Source of the DNA: Bacillota bacterium
GTDB taxonomy: Bacteria; Bacillota; Sulfobacillia; Sulfobacillales; Sulfobacillaceae
Direction of reading: 5' to 3'
DNA: 39,010 nt
Assembly: GCA_021797675.1 (NCBI GenBank)
Contig: JAJZZH010000090.1
Location: forward strand, 1-39,010
The notes under the pieces were generated by a model. The model was not told the DNA's origin, did no database searches, and worked only from the letters and a program-made list of their open reading frames with translations. Positions within the stretch are counted from its first letter, which is position 1, and each line of letters starts with the position of its first letter. The position numbers and the translations under genes were made by a program. Below are positions 4,521 to 14,034 of the stretch, piece by piece.

Positions 4521-4682
4521 CCACGCAGAGGGGTCTCGCGACCGCGGCGGGTGCCCATCGGGATGGCCGGCAACTTGACGCCGCCCCAACCAGACGGTCA
4601 GGTTGGGACCCCCTTCGGCGACCGAGCGGTCTCGGCTCTTGAGGCAGGGAGTATTATTCACCGCGACGGTAGAGGGTTAAGT

Positions 4683-5450
4683 ATGGGGGAGCAGGAGGGG
4701 GTCGGCACGCATTTTAGAGATCCATGGCCTTCTTCCCGTTCGGGGACGGAGCGGGCCTCCGGACCAGGGTTTCTTTGGCACTGGGTCTGGGGGACGTTCG
4801 CGGTCTTGGCAATGGTGGCGTTGGTGTGGTGGGGAGCCGGGCATTATCTGATTCATTTCCATTTGGAACGCTGGTTGGAAGGCGTTGCGCTCAGGATTCG
4901 CCGAGGCGCCGACCAAATGGGTGCGTGGGGTCCGATTTTGCTCATTGCGCTCTTGGCCGCGCATAGCGTGGCCTTTTTCTTTCCCATGGAGATTCCCACG
5001 TTTGCCGCCTTTAGTCTCTATGGGCCCATTTTAGGCGTCGTGATCGTGTGGGTGGGTTCGATGGTGGCGGCTGCCGTTTCCTATGGGCTGGGACGCGTGA
5101 TTGGCCCGCCGATTCTTCGTCACTGGGCACGGCACCCGCGGGTGATGGCGACTCAGCACGTGATCGCCACTCTGGAATCGTCGGAGCTCATCCTTCTGCG
5201 GTGGATCTCCCTCATTCCCTACGATGCACTCAACCTAATTTTCGGCACCTGCGAGATTCCCCTGTGGCGCTTTGCGTGGACCACTGGCCTTGGCGTGGGT
5301 GTGACCAACATCGCCATGATGTTCCTTTACGACCGCGCTCTCCATGCGGCCTGGGGTCAGTTCATCCTGATTGGCCTGATTGTCGCGTTGGCCGCGATCG
5401 TGGCGGTCCATCGTGGCAAATCCCTGAGGGACCGGCTGCGTATCAAATAA
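4683..5450 (+). CDS. TVP38/TMEM64 (VTT-domain) membrane protein
   Basis: The 255-residue protein has an N-terminal soluble stretch, a membrane segment near residues 33-55, and then the VTT domain. That domain is recognised by the re-entrant motif FFFPMEIPTF followed by a Gly-rich helix ending SYGLGRVIG. Further hydrophobic helices follow around residues 165-245. Members of this DedA-related superfamily are thought to move or scramble lipids or to support envelope homeostasis; the bacterial substrate is usually unknown. The chosen ATG lies after a modest AGAGG. The frame is open 44 codons further upstream, but that part is low in hydrophobicity and has no start signal. The gene is probably its own transcription unit, ending just before the MarR promoter. 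Confidence 0.82.
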   Translation: MGEQEGVGTHFRDPWPSSRSGTERASGPGFLWHWVWGTFAVLAMVALVWWGAGHYLIHFHLERWLEGVALRIRRGADQMGAWGPILLIALLAAHSVAFFFPMEIPTFAAFSLYGPILGVVIVWVGSMVAAAVSYGLGRVIGPPILRHWARHPRVMATQHVIATLESSELILLRWISLIPYDALNLIFGTCEIPLWRFAWTTGLGVGVTNIAMMFLYDRALHAAWGQFILIGLIVALAAIVAVHRGKSLRDRLRIK

Positions 5451-5465
5451 TCCGCGGCGTGCCGA

Positions 5466-5494
5466 TTGAAAATTTCTCAATGATTGCGTATAAT
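5466..5494 (+). promoter_or_regulatory. Sigma-A promoter of the marR-exporter operon
   Basis: TTGAAA (5466-5471) and a perfect TATAAT (5489-5494) are separated by 17 bases, the strongest-looking promoter in the accessory part of the window. Predicted transcription start is near 5501, inside the palindrome at 5490-5512. Confidence 0.85.
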
Positions 5495-5512
5495 TGTCTC
5501 GAAGACAATTAT
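5490..5512. promoter_or_regulatory. Palindromic operator over the -10 box, likely MarR site
   Basis: ATAATTGTCT (5490-5499) and AGACAATTAT (5503-5512) form a perfect 10-base inverted repeat around the centre CGA. It covers five of six -10 bases and the start point, so a bound dimer would block RNA polymerase. Size and centre spacing fit MarR-family operators, and the next gene downstream is a MarR protein. Confidence 0.8.
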
Positions 5513-5559
5513 TAACCGTCGTTTAGGGACTCGAAACGGCCCCGATGAAGGAGTGAGGC

Positions 5560-6018
5560 ATGACGCGACCGACCCAAGAGTCTGAGAGCGATCCCTCGGT
5601 GCTTCGGGCGACGGTGGCATTCTTTCGTTTGTTGGCCGTGGCCGAACCTATTTCGTTTGAATTATGGAAGACGCACGGGTTAACCTTGGGGCAGGTTCGC
5701 TTATTGCAACGCATTCGATCGCAACCCGTGGTGGCGGGCGACCTGGCCAAGGAGTTAGGAGTCCGGTCTGCGTCGCTAACCCGGATGATGGAACGGCTGG
5801 AAGCCGGTGGGTTGGTGGAGCGCACCCTTGACCGCGAGGACCGGCGGAGAATTTTAGTCTCGATTACCGCTCGCGGTGTGGAAACGCTCGGCGGCCTCGA
5901 TTTTTGGCGCAAAGGGGCGGTGGCCCAGGCCTTGCAGGCCATGAGCGAAGCCGAACGGGACCACCTGAGCCAAACCCTGGAAGACTTGACCGAACGGCTC
6001 CGGGCTCAAGAGCCCTAG
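5560..6018 (+). CDS. MarR-family transcriptional regulator
   Basis: This 152-residue protein has a winged helix-turn-helix typical of MarR. The recognition region is VVAGDLAKELGVRSASLTRM (about residues 57-76), followed by the LEAGGLVER turn and the wing DREDRRRILV (91-100). Flanking helices form the dimer interface. It has no cysteine, so it is not a thiol-based sensor of the OhrR kind; a small-molecule ligand is more likely. GGAG precedes the ATG by about eight bases. It lies 44 bases before the exporter gene and behind a promoter covered by a palindrome, so autorepression together with control of the exporter is the simplest reading. Confidence 0.93.
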   Translation: MTRPTQESESDPSVLRATVAFFRLLAVAEPISFELWKTHGLTLGQVRLLQRIRSQPVVAGDLAKELGVRSASLTRMMERLEAGGLVERTLDREDRRRILVSITARGVETLGGLDFWRKGAVAQALQAMSEAERDHLSQTLEDLTERLRAQEP

Positions 6019-6062
6019 CGAACCTCCATCACCGCGTTGTGCAGAAGGGAGCCAACGTTTCG

Positions 6063-7952
6063 ATGCCAACCGCGCGATCGCGTAGGCCTGTGCACCGGCA
6101 GCAGGGAATTGACTACAAATGGATAGCCCTGTCCAACACGACGCTCGGCATTTTGATGGCAGCGATTAATACGACCAGCCTGATCATTGCCCTGCCTGCC
6201 ATCTTTCGCGGTATCCACGTCGACCCCCTGGCCAAAGGCGCCACCGGCCTATTGCTGTGGGTTTTACTAGGCTTCAACGTGGCGACCACCATCCTGTTGG
6301 TGGCGTTTGGCCGCATTTCCGACAGCTACGGCCGAGTCCGCCTGTATAATGCCGGCTTTGCCGTCTTTACGTTGGGCTCTTTGCTGCTGTCGGTGATGCC
6401 TGGCCAGGGCGTCACCGGGGAATGGGAACTCATCATCTTTCGTTTGGTGCAAGGCATTGGCGGAGCGTTTCTATTTGCCAACTCGGCGGCCATTCTGACC
6501 GATGCCTTTCCCGCCAATGAGCGCGGGCTGGCCCTGGGGCTCAATCAGGTGGCCGGAATTGGGGGAGCCGTGCTCGGTCTCGTCTTAGGGGGCCTCTTAG
6601 CGGCGATTCATTGGCGGGCGGTGTTCTTGATTAACGTGCCGTTTGGGCTTGCCGGTACGGTGTGGGCGTATGTGGCGCTGCGCGAAAGTCGGAATCGGCG
6701 GCCGCCGCTGGCCATGGACTGGCTCGGCAATCTGACTTTTGGTGGCGGCCTCTTAGGGGTGCTGCTGGGGCTCACCTATAGTATTCAGCCTTACGGCGGC
6801 CATGCGGTAGGGTGGACCAATCCCTTCGTCATCGGTTCCTTGGCGGTTGGCGTGGCCTTGCTGATGGCCTTTGTCGTCGCCGAGCATCACGCACAGGATC
6901 CGATGTTCGATCTCCGCCTGTTTAAGCGCCAGGCCTTTACGGCCGGCAACGTGGCTGGCTTATTGGCAGCCATAGCTCGGGGCGGCCTAGCCTTCATGCT
7001 GATTATCTGGCTGCAGGGAATTTGGCTCCCCGTGCATGGGGTCTCCTTCGCCAATACCCCACTGAGAGCAGGAATCGACACCCTCCCGCAAATGGCAGGA
7101 TTTTTGGTCGCCGGTCCCGTCAGTGGCCGCCTGTCCGATCGTTTCGGCGCCACCTGGTTCGGCATGGCAGGCATGCTGGTGGCAGGAGTAGGCTTTTTCC
7201 TGCTGACCACCTTGCCGCCCCTGTTCCACTATTGGACGTTTGCCTGGTATATCTTCCTGGTGGGAGCGGGGATGGGCCTCTTTGCCTCGCCTAACTCGGC
7301 CGCCATCATGAACAGCGTGCCCGAGCGCTATCGCGGGGTCGCCTCCGGCATGCGGGCCACGTTTATGAATGCCGGCCAGATGTTATCGATGGGAATATTT
7401 TTTTCTATTGTGATTAGCGTGTTGTCTCAGCGGTTGCCGCCGGTCATGTTCCACGGACTCGTGGCCTATCACGTGCCCGCGACGGCGGCGCATCGGGTGT
7501 CACATCTCCCCCCCATCGCTGCGCTGTTTGCTGCCCTGTTGGGGTACAATCCGATGAAGATCATGCTCAAGCCCGCCTTGCTGGCCGCGGTACCGCCAGC
7601 GTTCCGCGCCTCCCTGGTGGGCAGAACCTTCTTTCCGCGCCTCATTGCCCATCCATTTATGGATGCGCTGAGGGTGGTGTTCTGGTTTTCCGTGGTCATG
7701 TCGCTGATTGCGGCGGTGGCATCGTTGTTACGGGGAAAGCGAGCGGTCTATGACGAGACCGAGAACCGCCCGCAGCCGGGTCTACGCTCGCTGGAGGTGC
7801 TGGCGTGGGTAGCCGTTTACTGGGCGCGCGGGGGGGCCAAACCGGGGGCGGACGGTGAGGCCCAGCAACGGCTTCTCCGCGCCCTCAGCTTTTTAAAAAT
7901 GGTGGAAAGCGGGAAGAGGCCGGGGCGCAGAGCTGGCGTCGGCGGGAGTTGA
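6063..7952 (+). CDS. DHA2-type MFS exporter (EmrB/QacA-like)
   Basis: This 629-residue protein is a proton-driven multidrug or metabolite exporter of the 14-helix MFS family. The first helix (residues 20-48) contains MAAINTTSLIIALP. Motif A is GRISDSYGRVR (83-93). The antiporter motif C region reads GGAVLGLVLGGLL in helix 5. An unusually long loop rich in His, Pro and Ala lies between the last two helices, and a soluble tail of about 60 residues follows the final helix. The start at ATG 6063 is preceded by AAGGGAG; the frame runs further upstream only inside the marR gene. The substrate is unknown. It is the likely target of the MarR protein and is followed after 30 bases by two small membrane-protein genes. 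Confidence 0.92.
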   Translation: MPTARSRRPVHRQQGIDYKWIALSNTTLGILMAAINTTSLIIALPAIFRGIHVDPLAKGATGLLLWVLLGFNVATTILLVAFGRISDSYGRVRLYNAGFAVFTLGSLLLSVMPGQGVTGEWELIIFRLVQGIGGAFLFANSAAILTDAFPANERGLALGLNQVAGIGGAVLGLVLGGLLAAIHWRAVFLINVPFGLAGTVWAYVALRESRNRRPPLAMDWLGNLTFGGGLLGVLLGLTYSIQPYGGHAVGWTNPFVIGSLAVGVALLMAFVVAEHHAQDPMFDLRLFKRQAFTAGNVAGLLAAIARGGLAFMLIIWLQGIWLPVHGVSFANTPLRAGIDTLPQMAGFLVAGPVSGRLSDRFGATWFGMAGMLVAGVGFFLLTTLPPLFHYWTFAWYIFLVGAGMGLFASPNSAAIMNSVPERYRGVASGMRATFMNAGQMLSMGIFFSIVISVLSQRLPPVMFHGLVAYHVPATAAHRVSHLPPIAALFAALLGYNPMKIMLKPALLAAVPPAFRASLVGRTFFPRLIAHPFMDALRVVFWFSVVMSLIAAVASLLRGKRAVYDETENRPQPGLRSLEVLAWVAVYWARGGAKPGADGEAQQRLLRALSFLKMVESGKRPGRRAGVGGS

Positions 7953-7982
7953 CGGCAAGGCCGAGGCGAAGGAGGGGGAAGG

Positions 7983-8465
7983 GTGCAGAAATACTTGTGG
8001 CCGATCAGCGCAATGATGGCTGCCGTGTTGGCCGGAGTGGCCCTGATGGTGAGCCCGTTTGCCATGCATCTCAATCGTGCGGGAGGCGCCTGGAGCCATG
8101 CCACCGAGGCGATGTTTTGGTCCGGGCTTTTCATGGTGGTGCTGGGGATGGCGAGCGGAGGGTTGTGGCAACGGGATTTGGCGAACCAGGTGCGCACCGC
8201 CGAGGCGCGGATCCATCCGGTTCCGGAGAGACCGGAACCGACCGCGGACGATACCACGGCCGAGACCGCAGTTGAGGACAATTGGGATCGGGAACTGGCA
8301 AAATTGGCCGAAGCGGTCTTGGAAGACTTGCGGGCGGAGACGGTCCGAACCGGCGGGAATTATCGGGCCGAGGAGCTTGAGAAGGTGGCTTCGGCCCTCC
8401 TCCGCGACTTGCCGGAGCAGAAATCCAGCCGCACGGAAAGCGGACGAGGGGGGGGATTCGCGTGA
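7983..8465 (+). CDS. Small two-helix membrane protein, SPW-repeat-like (copy 1)
   Basis: A 160-residue protein of unknown function starts at GTG behind GGAGGGG. Two hydrophobic helices occupy about residues 7-29 and 42-62. The first holds VALMVSPFAMH, like the SPW repeat found in small bacterial membrane proteins. The remaining 95 residues are soluble: a Pro/Glu-rich linker followed by two amphipathic helices (LAKLAEAVLEDLRAE and LEKVASALLRDL). The next gene encodes a protein of the same design and overlaps this one by four bases. Cotranscription with the exporter suggests a partner or envelope-stress role, which is inference only. Confidence 0.7.
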   Translation: MQKYLWPISAMMAAVLAGVALMVSPFAMHLNRAGGAWSHATEAMFWSGLFMVVLGMASGGLWQRDLANQVRTAEARIHPVPERPEPTADDTTAETAVEDNWDRELAKLAEAVLEDLRAETVRTGGNYRAEELEKVASALLRDLPEQKSSRTESGRGGGFA

Positions 8466-8899
8466 AAGCGGCCGGAGGTCTTTCGGTAGCGGTGGTGCTG
8501 ACCGGCGTGTGGGTCGGGGTGGCGCCGTTTGTGATCGGCTATGCCCCGGCTAGCGGATCGCCTTGGACGGGCCCGGTCAGCATGTCGGTAGGGATAGGGG
8601 TGGCGGCGGCGTGTTTCGGATTGATCGGCTTGGTCGGATATAGCGGGGGACGCCTCGGGGAGTTGCAACGGATGATGAAGGACATTGCGGAGCGCGAGCA
8701 GGCCGAGGATGGCGCCCTGGCGCCCGACGTCGAGGCCAAGGCGTTGGCCCCTTCGGCACGGACGTCTACCCCCTTGGAACCGGAGCCTGGAGCCAGGGCG
8801 GGCGAGTCCTCCGTCTCCGACCCTGAGGCCAAGTTGCAGGAGCTGGTGCAGCGCGTCCTGCAGGACTATCATACCGGAACCGAAAAAGGTCGGGGCTGA
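8462..8899 (+). CDS. Small two-helix membrane protein, SPW-repeat-like (copy 2)
   Basis: This 145-residue protein starts at a GTG that overlaps the previous stop (GTGA), so translation is coupled. Helix 1 (about residues 5-27) contains GVWVGVAPFVIGYAP, a good match to the SPW-repeat style. Helix 2 spans about residues 40-62. A Glu/Ala/Pro-rich linker follows, and the protein ends with an amphipathic helix, KLQELVQRVLQDY. That helix resembles the C-terminal helices of the preceding protein, so the two genes look like an old duplication. Function unknown. It is the last gene before the ribosomal region. Confidence 0.7.
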   Translation: MKAAGGLSVAVVLTGVWVGVAPFVIGYAPASGSPWTGPVSMSVGIGVAAACFGLIGLVGYSGGRLGELQRMMKDIAEREQAEDGALAPDVEAKALAPSARTSTPLEPEPGARAGESSVSDPEAKLQELVQRVLQDYHTGTEKGRG

Positions 8900-8936
8900 C
8901 ACCGCAACCCTGCGGGCCCTGGGCGGCGCATTGGGC

Positions 8937-8965
8937 TTGCGCCGCGCGCCAAAACCTGGTACACT
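8937..8965 (+). promoter_or_regulatory. Probable promoter of the rplJ-rplL unit
   Basis: TTGCGC (8937-8942) and TACACT (8960-8965) are spaced by 17 bases, with TG shortly before the -10 box. The -35 box overlaps the 3' arm of a GC-rich hairpin (8923-8945) that follows the upstream operon. The predicted transcript starts near 8972, just before the L10-binding element. Confidence 0.55.
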
Positions 8966-8984
8966 ACCGCCGAAGCCCAAAGAC

Positions 8985-9091
8985 GACAGGGGCCAGCATG
9001 GCTTAATGATCCTGTCCAGGTGCAGGTGGACGGCGGATGGGTTTCCGTGCTCCTCACCCTAAAAGCAGCGATAGGGTGAGGAGATTTTTTT
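8985..9091 (+). promoter_or_regulatory. L10-type ribosomal protein leader with attenuator
   Basis: GACAGG (8985-8990) pairs with CCTGTC (9011-9016) around an internal stretch reading ATGGCTTAAT, the hallmark of the kink-turn where the L10(L12) complex binds its own leader. Downstream, CTCCTCACCCT (9050-9060) and AGGGTGAGGAG (9073-9083) form a perfect 11-base-pair hairpin followed by seven T residues, a textbook intrinsic terminator placed before the rplJ ribosome binding site. In Firmicutes such leaders repress rplJL when free L10 accumulates. The two parts seen here match that scheme. Confidence 0.85.
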
Positions 9092-9110
9092 CGTGGAAGG
9101 AGGTGACGCC

Positions 9111-9635
9111 ATGGCCACGGCGAAAAAGGCCGAAGTCATTGCCGAGACCCGCGGCGATCTTGAACGAGCGCAGTCCGTCGTGCTCGCAGATTACCGGGGC
9201 CTTACTGTGCAGCAGATGGGCCAGTTGCGGAAAAAGCTCGCCGAGCGCGAGGTGGTGATCAAGGTTATCAAGAATACCCTGATCAAACGCGCGGCGGACG
9301 AGGTGGGAATTGAGGGGCTGGATGCCGTGCTGACCGGCCCCACGGCCGTAGCTTTTGCCTACGCGGATCCGGTGAGCGCAGCCAAGGTGATGACCGAGGC
9401 GGTGCGCGAATTTCGGCGGATCGAAATTAAAGGCGGCATCCTAGGTCGCGTTGCGGTGACCGCTGAAGGGGTGCGCAGCTTGGCCGAATTGCCGAGTCGA
9501 GAGGTGCTGTTGGGAAAGCTGGCCGGCACCTTGATGGCACCCATCCAGCAATTGGCCTGGGTATTGAACGCCCCCATCGGGAACCTTGCGCGGGCGCTGG
9601 ACCAGGTCCGGCAGCAAAAGGCGCAGGAAGCCTAG
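9111..9635 (+). CDS. rplJ: 50S ribosomal protein L10 (uL10)
   Basis: The 174-residue protein forms the base of the L7/L12 stalk and anchors L12 dimers for recruiting translation factors. Recognisable are the VVLADYRGLT motif near residue 25, the VIKNTLIKRA segment that contacts 23S rRNA, and the C-terminal helix (VLNAPIGNLARALDQVRQQ) that binds L12. AAGGAGGTGA, fully complementary to the 16S rRNA end, precedes the ATG. Rather than the usual rplK-rplA, the upstream neighbour here is the exporter operon, so the unit has its own promoter and attenuated leader. Confidence 0.97.
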   Translation: MATAKKAEVIAETRGDLERAQSVVLADYRGLTVQQMGQLRKKLAEREVVIKVIKNTLIKRAADEVGIEGLDAVLTGPTAVAFAYADPVSAAKVMTEAVREFRRIEIKGGILGRVAVTAEGVRSLAELPSREVLLGKLAGTLMAPIQQLAWVLNAPIGNLARALDQVRQQKAQEA

Positions 9636-9673
9636 CGCCCAGACGCCAAGCAAAGATTGATTGCGTTCCATGC

Positions 9674-9773
9674 AGGCGAGCCAACGAAAAGGCGAGCCAA
9701 CGAAAAGGCGAGCTAACGAAAGGGCGAGCCGCCAAAACAGGCGAGCCGCCAAAACAGGCGAGCCAGCGAAAAA
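9674..9773 (+). repeat. Tandem 16/17-base repeats in the rplJ-rplL spacer
   Basis: Three units of a 16-base sequence beginning AGGCGAGCC (9674-9721; the third differs by one base) are followed by two units of a 17-base variant containing GCCAAAAC (9722-9755) and a last partial unit (9756-9773). This last unit runs straight into the GGAGG of rplL. Unit length is not a multiple of three and no gene uses it. The array fills about two thirds of the spacer between two normally tightly linked genes. Confidence 0.9.
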
Positions 9774-9786
9774 AGGAGGAAATACG

Positions 9787-10170
9787 GTGGCGAAGGTCGA
9801 AGAGATCATCGAATCGGTGAAGGGGATGAACGTCCTCGAGTTGTCGCAATTGGTCAAGGCGATCGAGGAGGAATTTGGGGTCACCGCGCAGGCACCGGTC
9901 GCCGTGGCCGCTGCGCCGGCCGCCGGGCCGGCCGCGGCCCCCGCCGAAGAGGTCGAGCAGACCGAGTTTGATGTGGTGCTAACGGCCGCCGGCGACAAGA
10001 AAGTCCAGGTCATTAAGGCGGTGCGTGAATTGACCGGATTGTCCCTGACCGAAGCGAAGGCGCTGGTCGACGGAGCGCCCAAGCCGGTGAAACAGAAGGT
10101 GGCCAAGGCGGATGCCGACGAAGCCAAGGCCAAACTCGAAGAGGCAGGCGGCGTGGTCGAAATCAAATAG
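9787..10170 (+). CDS. rplL: 50S ribosomal protein L7/L12 (bL12)
   Basis: The 127-residue stalk protein contacts EF-G, EF-Tu and initiation factor 2 and stimulates their GTPase activity. The N-terminal dimerisation helices ([20 protein letters not shown]) are followed by an Ala/Pro hinge at about residues 35-55. The conserved factor-binding domain then contains [13 protein letters not shown]-like and [16 protein letters not shown] segments. The start is GTG at 9787, behind AAAGGAGG; longer readings enter the repeat array and are not credible. A large hairpin follows the stop, so expression over rpoBC can be set separately. Confidence 0.97.
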
Positions 10171-10198
10171 GAAAGCCAGAGACTAAAGGCGGTCGCAT

Positions 10199-10244
10199 AA
10201 GCCCACCTCCGGGTCAATTTGTCTCTTGACCTAGGGGTGGGCTT
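10199..10244 (+). promoter_or_regulatory. Large hairpin between rplL and rpoB
   Basis: AAGCCCACC (10199-10207) pairs with GGTGGGCTT (10236-10244), and GGTCAA (10212-10217) with TTGACC (10226-10231), leaving an eight-base loop. The stem is about 19 pairs with one mismatch and two wobble pairs. No T-run follows, so it is not a plain terminator. The position equals that of the attenuator and RNase III site known between these genes in enteric bacteria; a partial stop or a cleavage site that lowers rpoBC relative to rplJL is likely. Confidence 0.75.
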
Positions 10245-10254
10245 GTGATACTAT
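10226..10254 (+). promoter_or_regulatory. Promoter upstream of rpoB, inside the hairpin arm
   Basis: TTGACC (10226-10231), 17 bases, then TACTAT (10249-10254) form a good sigma-A promoter. The -35 box is the inner part of the 3' arm of the hairpin 10199-10244. Transcripts would carry a leader of about 120 bases before rpoB, containing a second small hairpin (CCGT 10318-10321 with ACGG 10336-10339, and CGGC with GCCG inside). Confidence 0.65.
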
Positions 10255-10383
10255 CATTACTTGCGATATTTTATAAGCCATTTCATTCCAGAGCCGGAAC
10301 AAAGCTGTGAGCTAACGCCGTCGGCGTGCGCCGATACGGTAGGGCGGTAGGAAACCTTGGATATTTAAGGAGCTGACGGTGAA

Positions 10384-14034
<3,651 letters not shown>

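Follow-up and report, generated by a model that had tools for sequence, protein, structure and literature searches.

Two small SPW-like membrane proteins encoded beside a DHA2-type exporter with a C-terminal tail domain: candidate accessory subunits in the Sulfobacillaceae

MFS exporters are usually regarded as single proteins. In the DNA analysed here (the window, 39,010 nucleotides of a Sulfobacillaceae genome), the gene of a putative MFS exporter is preceded by the gene of a MarR-family regulator and followed by two genes for small membrane proteins, A and B, which come last in the order marR, exporter, A, B (Table 1). The question raised by this locus is what A and B do beside the exporter. 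A reading made from the sequence alone (the sequence-only reading) had proposed a membrane complex that modulates it. Our answer, to which we give an even chance of being right, is that A and B may be dedicated accessory subunits docked on the tail of the DHA2-type exporter. The contact suggested by the sequences is between a short helix in the tail of each protein and a small additional domain on the exporter.

Table 1. Genes, protein segments and candidate regulatory sites in the window.
Feature	Position	Strand	Description
Sigma-70-type promoter-like site TTGAAA-17-TATAAT	5466-5494	+	upstream of marR; 11/12 consensus positions
Inverted repeat ATAATTGTC-N5-GACAATTAT	5490-5512	.	perfect palindrome overlapping -10 box; candidate MarR operator
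MarR-family regulator	5560-6018	+	PF12802 45.8 bits vs cut-off 27
Putative MFS exporter, DHA2/EmrB-QacA-EfpA type, class 1	6063-7952	+	629 aa; PF07690 142.5 bits
Exporter C-terminal tail domain	7782-7910	+	residues 574-616; two predicted helices after low-confidence linker
Protein A gene	7983-8465	+	160 aa, GTG start; two-helix SPW-like membrane protein with predicted cytoplasmic tail
A tail motif 1, LAKLAEAVLEDL	8295-8330	+	residues 105-116; 24.9 bits (matrix trained on host family, hence circular)
A tail motif 2, LEKVASALLRDL	8376-8411	+	residues 132-143; 19.9 bits (circular)
Protein B gene	8462-8899	+	145 aa, GTG start; second two-helix SPW-like membrane protein
B tail motif, LQELVQRVLQDY	8834-8869	+	residues 125-136; 21.1 bits (circular)

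Both reading frames were found at these positions, and the two genes overlap as the sequence-only reading had it, the stop of A and the start of B sharing 4 nt (GTGA). Gene order also bears out its placing of the pair within the MarR operon. Among the 26 loci (window included) in which both genes were called, with start codons picked by script, the A/B junction was a 4-nt overlap in 16 and a 1-nt overlap in 4, and in 5 the genes stood 1-2 nt apart. A wide gap was seen only in L068, where the frame of A looks broken; the gene seems to go out of frame ahead of its tail (L068, 6001-6397). Downstream of the pair in the window lie open reading frames that read like rplJ, rplL and rpoB. Directly upstream of marR is a gene that reads like a DedA-like membrane protein (4551-5450), and tblastn with its product placed such a gene upstream in L040, L041, L042 and L044 as well. 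No Rfam match at gathering score was obtained in 7900-10600.

The arrangement of an MFS exporter followed by two such proteins is conserved in the acid-loving host family. Matches to A were obtained in 25 of the 34 genomes of the family; the 42 matches were 41 loci and one B, and the loci comprised 29 of the window's type (A-type) and 12 with a related protein, C (C-type), which has a longer tail in 9 of the 12. In 36 of the 41 loci, the gene immediately before the pair encodes an exporter; this holds for 24 of the 29 A-type loci (class-1 exporters) and for all 12 C-type loci (class-2 exporters, with 26-29% identity to that of the window). Where the contig permits, A-type loci also have the pair's second gene (27/27; the contigs of L043 and L044 end early). 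A second gene with an SPW-like sequence, whose profile scores are low (E 7e-4 to 2e-8), is present in 14/14 class-2 loci, including two (L202 and L203) brought in from the exporter search. With tblastn, 21 of the 29 A-type loci showed a marR gene resembling the window's. In L051, an exporter remnant lies between marR and A (4673-5926).

Outside the 34 genomes, A/B-type genes linked to an exporter were found in L122, L127, L130, L133, L139 and L161. In an even phylum sample of 398 genomes, the A profile matched three: the window's genome, one family member and G392, where the match was weak and ran across a stop codon. A search of genome contigs with A alone gave no matches. A class-1 exporter in a genome of another genus (L043 in G027) is identical to L038 on contig C127 of the window's genome, and the A proteins of the two loci differ by one residue over the available part. 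This is probably a cross-binned contig or a very recent transfer, and one of the 24 paired exporter copies may consequently be cross-binned.

Five of the 41 family loci (L049, L051, L060, L061 and L062, all A-type) have a pair but no intact exporter next to it. They speak for a different reading, in which A and B are co-regulated by MarR but act independently of the exporter, for instance in the membrane's reaction to the same substance, with their tails binding each other instead of the exporter. In four of these five genomes a tailed exporter is encoded elsewhere, which argues against it; the fifth genome is 63% complete. We consider independent action unlikely, though by no means negligible.

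The regulatory region points to joint control of the operon. A promoter scan of 5400-9300 found one site, with 1.0 expected in shuffles. The palindrome overlapping it was used as a template in the other class-1 loci (L043, L054 and L060 left out), and it is kept upstream of marR in 17/17 loci tested, at 13-16 of 18 arm positions; the fraction of shuffles as good was ≤0.007 in 15 loci and 0.03-0.04 in L061 and L062. A shared operator in class-2 loci was above shuffles in none of the nine tested (of 12). The window's genome (4.06 Mb) contains two copies of the palindrome (≤3 mismatches), each before a MarR-MFS-A-B operon, so the regulator looks local to such operons; a reversed control pattern had no occurrence. 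Judged from sequence, the palindrome is probably the MarR operator.

A and B are built alike. Profile comparison by hhalign confirmed that the two proteins resemble each other over helices and tail (97.9%, E 3.4e-13), and both are related to C (E 3.1e-25 for A, 8.6e-10 for B). With the tails of A and B alone, the comparison gave E 1e-3 and a probability of 22%, and 0/20 column shuffles were as good; this likeness of the tails favours independent action, with the tails binding each other. The two N-terminal helices that had been claimed for each protein were recovered by hydropathy of relatives (window excluded), by AlphaFold for A, and by reading and alignment for the window's B. AlphaFold (16 rows) placed helices of A at residues 5-31, 39-77, 94-122 and 128-150 with a mean pLDDT of 73; since the pTM was 0.36, their overall arrangement is uncertain. 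Lys/Arg counts indicate a cytoplasmic location of both termini for 29/29 A, 26/26 B and 11/11 C proteins, and on these charge counts the tails of A and B would lie in the cytoplasm.

The SPW-like words noted by the sequence-only reading stand in part: the family position is occupied by SPF in A and APF in B, but the literal SPW of B is in a loop. The Pro of the helix-1 motif is invariant (Pro 25 in 27/27 rows of A, Pro 22 in 25/25 rows of B). Literal SPW is invariant in 12/12 C-type relatives; it is absent from helix 1 of A and B. The Pfam SPW model (PF03779, gathering score 31.5) gave 14.1 bits for A and 18.9 for B. B matched no other Pfam model, and A scored higher only with DUF4149 (15.1 bits), all of these scores being below cut-off, and no domain other than that of the SPW family was found in A and B by Pfam. 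At E ≤0.01, the model matched 23/25 rows of B, 10/12 of C and 5/27 of A. Because their scores are below the Pfam cut-off, A and B are termed SPW-like relatives here, not SPW family members. They share with PF03779 a two-helix unit with a Pro-containing motif, and they differ in having one unit per gene, paired genes and cytoplasmic tails with the motif LAExVLxDL. According to one account, SPW proteins have one or two units per chain, the second often degenerate (PMC8078820). As a chain with two units is common among known SPW proteins, A and B probably form an equivalent four-helix SPW-type unit, as a heteromer.

The window's genome also encodes a canonical tandem SPW protein (L101, contig C49; 46.5 bits, over the Pfam cut-off). 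Like A and B it has SPW units, and unlike them it holds both in one chain (by reading). The frame adjoining its gene resembles, on reading, 2-oxoglutarate dehydrogenase E1, and no exporter was recognised beside it in the 3.3 kb read. A phage or holin-like membrane protein was considered for A and B and rejected: PHROGs gave no match for either, and a weak holin match appeared in only 2/25 B members. No solved structure was found for the A profile.

The exporter is a DHA2-type protein with an addition. It scored 166.1 bits with TIGR00711, under the cut-off of 230.2, and was above the cut-off of 33.4 with the general MFS model PF07690 (142.5 bits). Its nearest solved structures are 7y58 (antiseptic resistance protein) and EfpA. 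In sequence and fold it is like EmrB, QacA and EfpA; what sets it apart from these DHA2-type exporters is an additional two-helix domain at its cytoplasmic C-terminus, together with two partners in the membrane. AlphaFold (21 rows) placed the tail helices at residues 574-587 and 598-616, with block pLDDT of 85-89 over 581-610, and the tail is predicted to be a helical hairpin. Neither of these helices showed a clear amphipathic character (p 0.11 and 0.39). A C-terminal extension of similar plan is present in class-2 exporters; the tail profiles of the two classes are weakly alike at best (E 0.033; 0/20 shuffles as good).

The tail goes with the pair. Among the 41 class-1 copies in the 34 genomes (E ≤1e-100), the extension is present in 24/24 copies beside a pair (71-109 residues). 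The 17 copies without an adjoining pair comprise 10 tailed (70-127 residues) and 7 tailless ones (12-40 residues), giving p 8.7e-4 for the association of tail and pair with relatedness ignored. The ten tailed copies with no pair alongside weigh against docking. In all ten cases of a tailed solo exporter, the genome carries a pair elsewhere, consistent with solo exporters using partners encoded elsewhere. At the genome level, with both exporter classes considered, a tailed exporter is found in 24/25 pair-bearing and 0/9 pairless genomes; the sole pair-bearing genome without one is G032, which is 63% complete.

We then come to the tails of A and B, in which the sequence-only reading had seen C-terminal amphipathic helices. 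The A tail has two copies of the pattern, LAKLAEAVLEDL and LEKVASALLRDL, and the B tail has one, LQELVQRVLQDY; helical-moment shuffles upheld the amphipathic character of all three (p 0.048, 0.009 and 0.038 respectively). The conserved tail helix has the consensus LAExVLxDL. In motif 1 of A, residues 108, 109, 112, 113 and 115 are invariant in 27/27 rows. The second copy is present in 6/27 A rows, and a tail with the motif in 9/25 B rows, the other 16 stopping soon after helix 2. Many C-type (class-2) partners carry three copies, TDEALLALAASVVKD, SEEELVRLASALLTEIQ and SEAELVKMATSLLEEIQ, on Pro-rich linkers (e.g. L072, 3275-3928). Compared by profile with the tails of A, B and C, the class-1 exporter tail gave E 0.29, 0.91 and 0.21 (equalled by 1, 17 and 1 of 20 column-shuffled controls), and the class-2 tail E 0.16-0.17 (3, 0 and 0 of 20); on these values we make no claim that exporter and partner tails share one repeat.

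The motif was searched for with a matrix of 12 residues, trained on the 34 host-family genomes and circular inside these, at a threshold of 13 bits that was set after the training scores were known. An exporter-alignment scan of genome contigs confirmed at least 517 relatives, of which 80 loci were kept; these plus L195, minus 26 duplicates, gave 55 copies from other genomes among the matches listed, which may include members of the host family. The tail model, built on the 34 genomes, found the tail in L122, L127, L140, L149 and L195 among the matches listed, and L195 was excluded from the test of association, having been found via its partner. A motif of at least 13 bits within 2.5 kb downstream was present in 4/4 tailed exporters (L122, L127, L140 and L149) and in 1/50 tailless ones, four of which had fewer than 500 bases available downstream (p 1.6e-5 among the matches listed, relatedness ignored). 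The single tailless case, L179 at 13.9 bits, is likely a chance match.

Over all 96 rows among the matches listed, the motif was downstream of 27/39 tailed exporters (a count that is partly circular) and 1/57 tailless ones. Control searches among the same matches gave 1/39 and 0/57 for downstream antisense, 0/39 and 2/57 for upstream sense, and 0 and 0 for upstream antisense. With all evidence on partners included, the matches listed contained 29 tailed exporters with a partner (L195 included) and 10 without; among tailless exporters, 4 had a partner, 50 had none and 3 were not assessable. The four (L130, L133, L139 and L161) have SPW-like neighbours. L130, L133 and L139 combine a tailless exporter with genes that resemble A and B and encode a motif-like helix, which again favours independent action of A and B. 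The exporter of L161 has a long tail of its own, of a different kind. Against independent action, tail and motif partner occur together in the other-genome copies among the matches listed and in class 2: 14/14 close copies (≥64% identity to the exporter of L069) have both tail and partner and 0/4 of the next nearest have either, with L208 (cut by a contig end) and L209 (39% identical) left out.

Many of these rows are close kin, and tail and downstream genes could have been co-transmitted in a few lineages with no joint function. On an exporter tree built without the tail, among the matches listed and with partner labels set by hand for L130, L133, L139, L140, L149, L161 and L195, the tail changes about seven times, and at least five. 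Five independent pairs could be drawn; on average, tail and partner changed in the same direction in 4.1 of them and in opposite directions in 0.2 (median p 0.125). The sign test falls short of significance because the independent pairs are too few, and this shortfall speaks for inherited linkage. Against such linkage, tail and partner occur together in L122 and L127 and the tail occurs with a different partner in Alicyclobacillus, both are missing in L091-L093, L082-L083 and L084, amid tailed rows of the tree, and the distant class 2 repeats the pattern. We consider linkage with no joint function highly improbable.

The different partner is found in three Alicyclobacillus loci, L140 (strain ALC3), L149 (A. 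montanus) and L195 (strain SP_1), in which a non-SPW gene follows the tailed exporter. By reading, its product has several motif-like helices followed by a conserved domain, and no membrane helix. The domain had no match to a Pfam family, and no solved structure was found for the protein; presumably it may hold a Roadblock/LC7 domain. The motif matrix gave one match of 21.2 bits in the L149 partner, matches of 16.6 and 8.7 bits in that of L140, and matches of 12.0 and 10.6 bits, both below the threshold of 13, in that of L195. Relatives of the L149 partner were found in 6 of the 16 genomes searched. Six relatives of the domain (L196-L201) belong to operons that read like the ABC-2/HlyD type, in Alicyclobacillus-type genomes; they share the domain core GW....ASDR.Y and have an N-terminal membrane helix instead of the motif-like helices. 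Five of the six were without a motif match at 8 bits, and one matched at 8.1. This contrast between the exporter-linked partner and its ABC-2-type relatives is the best evidence that the motif is tied to the exporter tail rather than to the SPW fold. Its recurrence in a different protein after tailed exporters also argues against independent action of A and B.

The same partner, with several such helices and no membrane helix (by reading), would suit another arrangement, in which the exporter tail, like the motifs of the A, B and C tails, serves as a docking site for a further protein of the cytosol; this would cluster or modulate them, and they would have no mutual contact. The C proteins, which bear up to three motifs on long flexible linkers, are likewise as expected of a multivalent recruiter. 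A third conserved gene was not evident in the neighbourhoods (by reading only), and the covariation of exporter tail and motif partner is simpler to explain with these two alone. A shared third protein seems improbable to us.

We return to A and B as subunits of the exporter. Both checks proposed with the sequence-only reading came out in its favour: the pair recurs next to exporters, and A and B resemble each other by profile. Weighing against docking are the tailed exporters that lack a pair alongside, the pairs that lack an exporter, the three loci that combine a pair with a tailless exporter, the 16 of 25 B proteins devoid of the tail motif, the window's exporter tail helices with their unclear amphipathic character, the weak likeness of class-1 and class-2 tails, the sparse or sub-threshold motif matches of L149 and L195, the low pTM of the A model and the small number of independent contrasts. 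The claim of a complex modulating the exporter has stood as regards a functional tie, which is supported by the operator, the exporter tail and the tail motif, but the heteromer of A, B and exporter is our inference. In the proposed mechanism, MarR would bind the palindrome over the promoter, and the regulator, the exporter and the subunits would be switched on together, presumably when the exported compound appears. The LAExVLxDL helix would dock on the cytoplasmic two-helix domain of the exporter, as co-occurrence and partner swapping suggest, and docking may stabilise, localise or gate the exporter. An exporter or a pair that stands alone might be matched with a partner from another locus of the genome.

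Small transporter modulators and separate MFS partners are known, such as AcrZ on AcrB, EmrA with EmrB and LprG with Rv1410c. They resemble the proposal made here in that a small or separate protein is encoded with, or acts on, an exporter. To our knowledge, none of them is an SPW-type pair with a docking motif in its tail. The pair had been called undescribed, and in keeping with this we found no published account of such a pair in a literature search that most subscription journals lay outside. The components are of known kinds; their combination is apparently not in print within the literature searched.

More tentatively, with somewhat less than an even chance, the exporter tail may be one half of a modular plug-and-socket system, in which a two-helix C-terminal socket takes LAExVLxDL helices from interchangeable partners. 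If so, the partners would be a paired SPW-like membrane unit of the Sulfobacillus type and a multi-helix non-membrane protein in Alicyclobacillus, and single-chain MFS exporters would gain regulatory subunits, as ABC transporters have. The operon, with its own operator, is a ready genetic system. The SPW-like branch, for which no function was found in the literature searched, would gain a context and a testable role, and the tail domain with its matching motifs would be a general means of attaching regulatory or structural subunits to MFS exporters.
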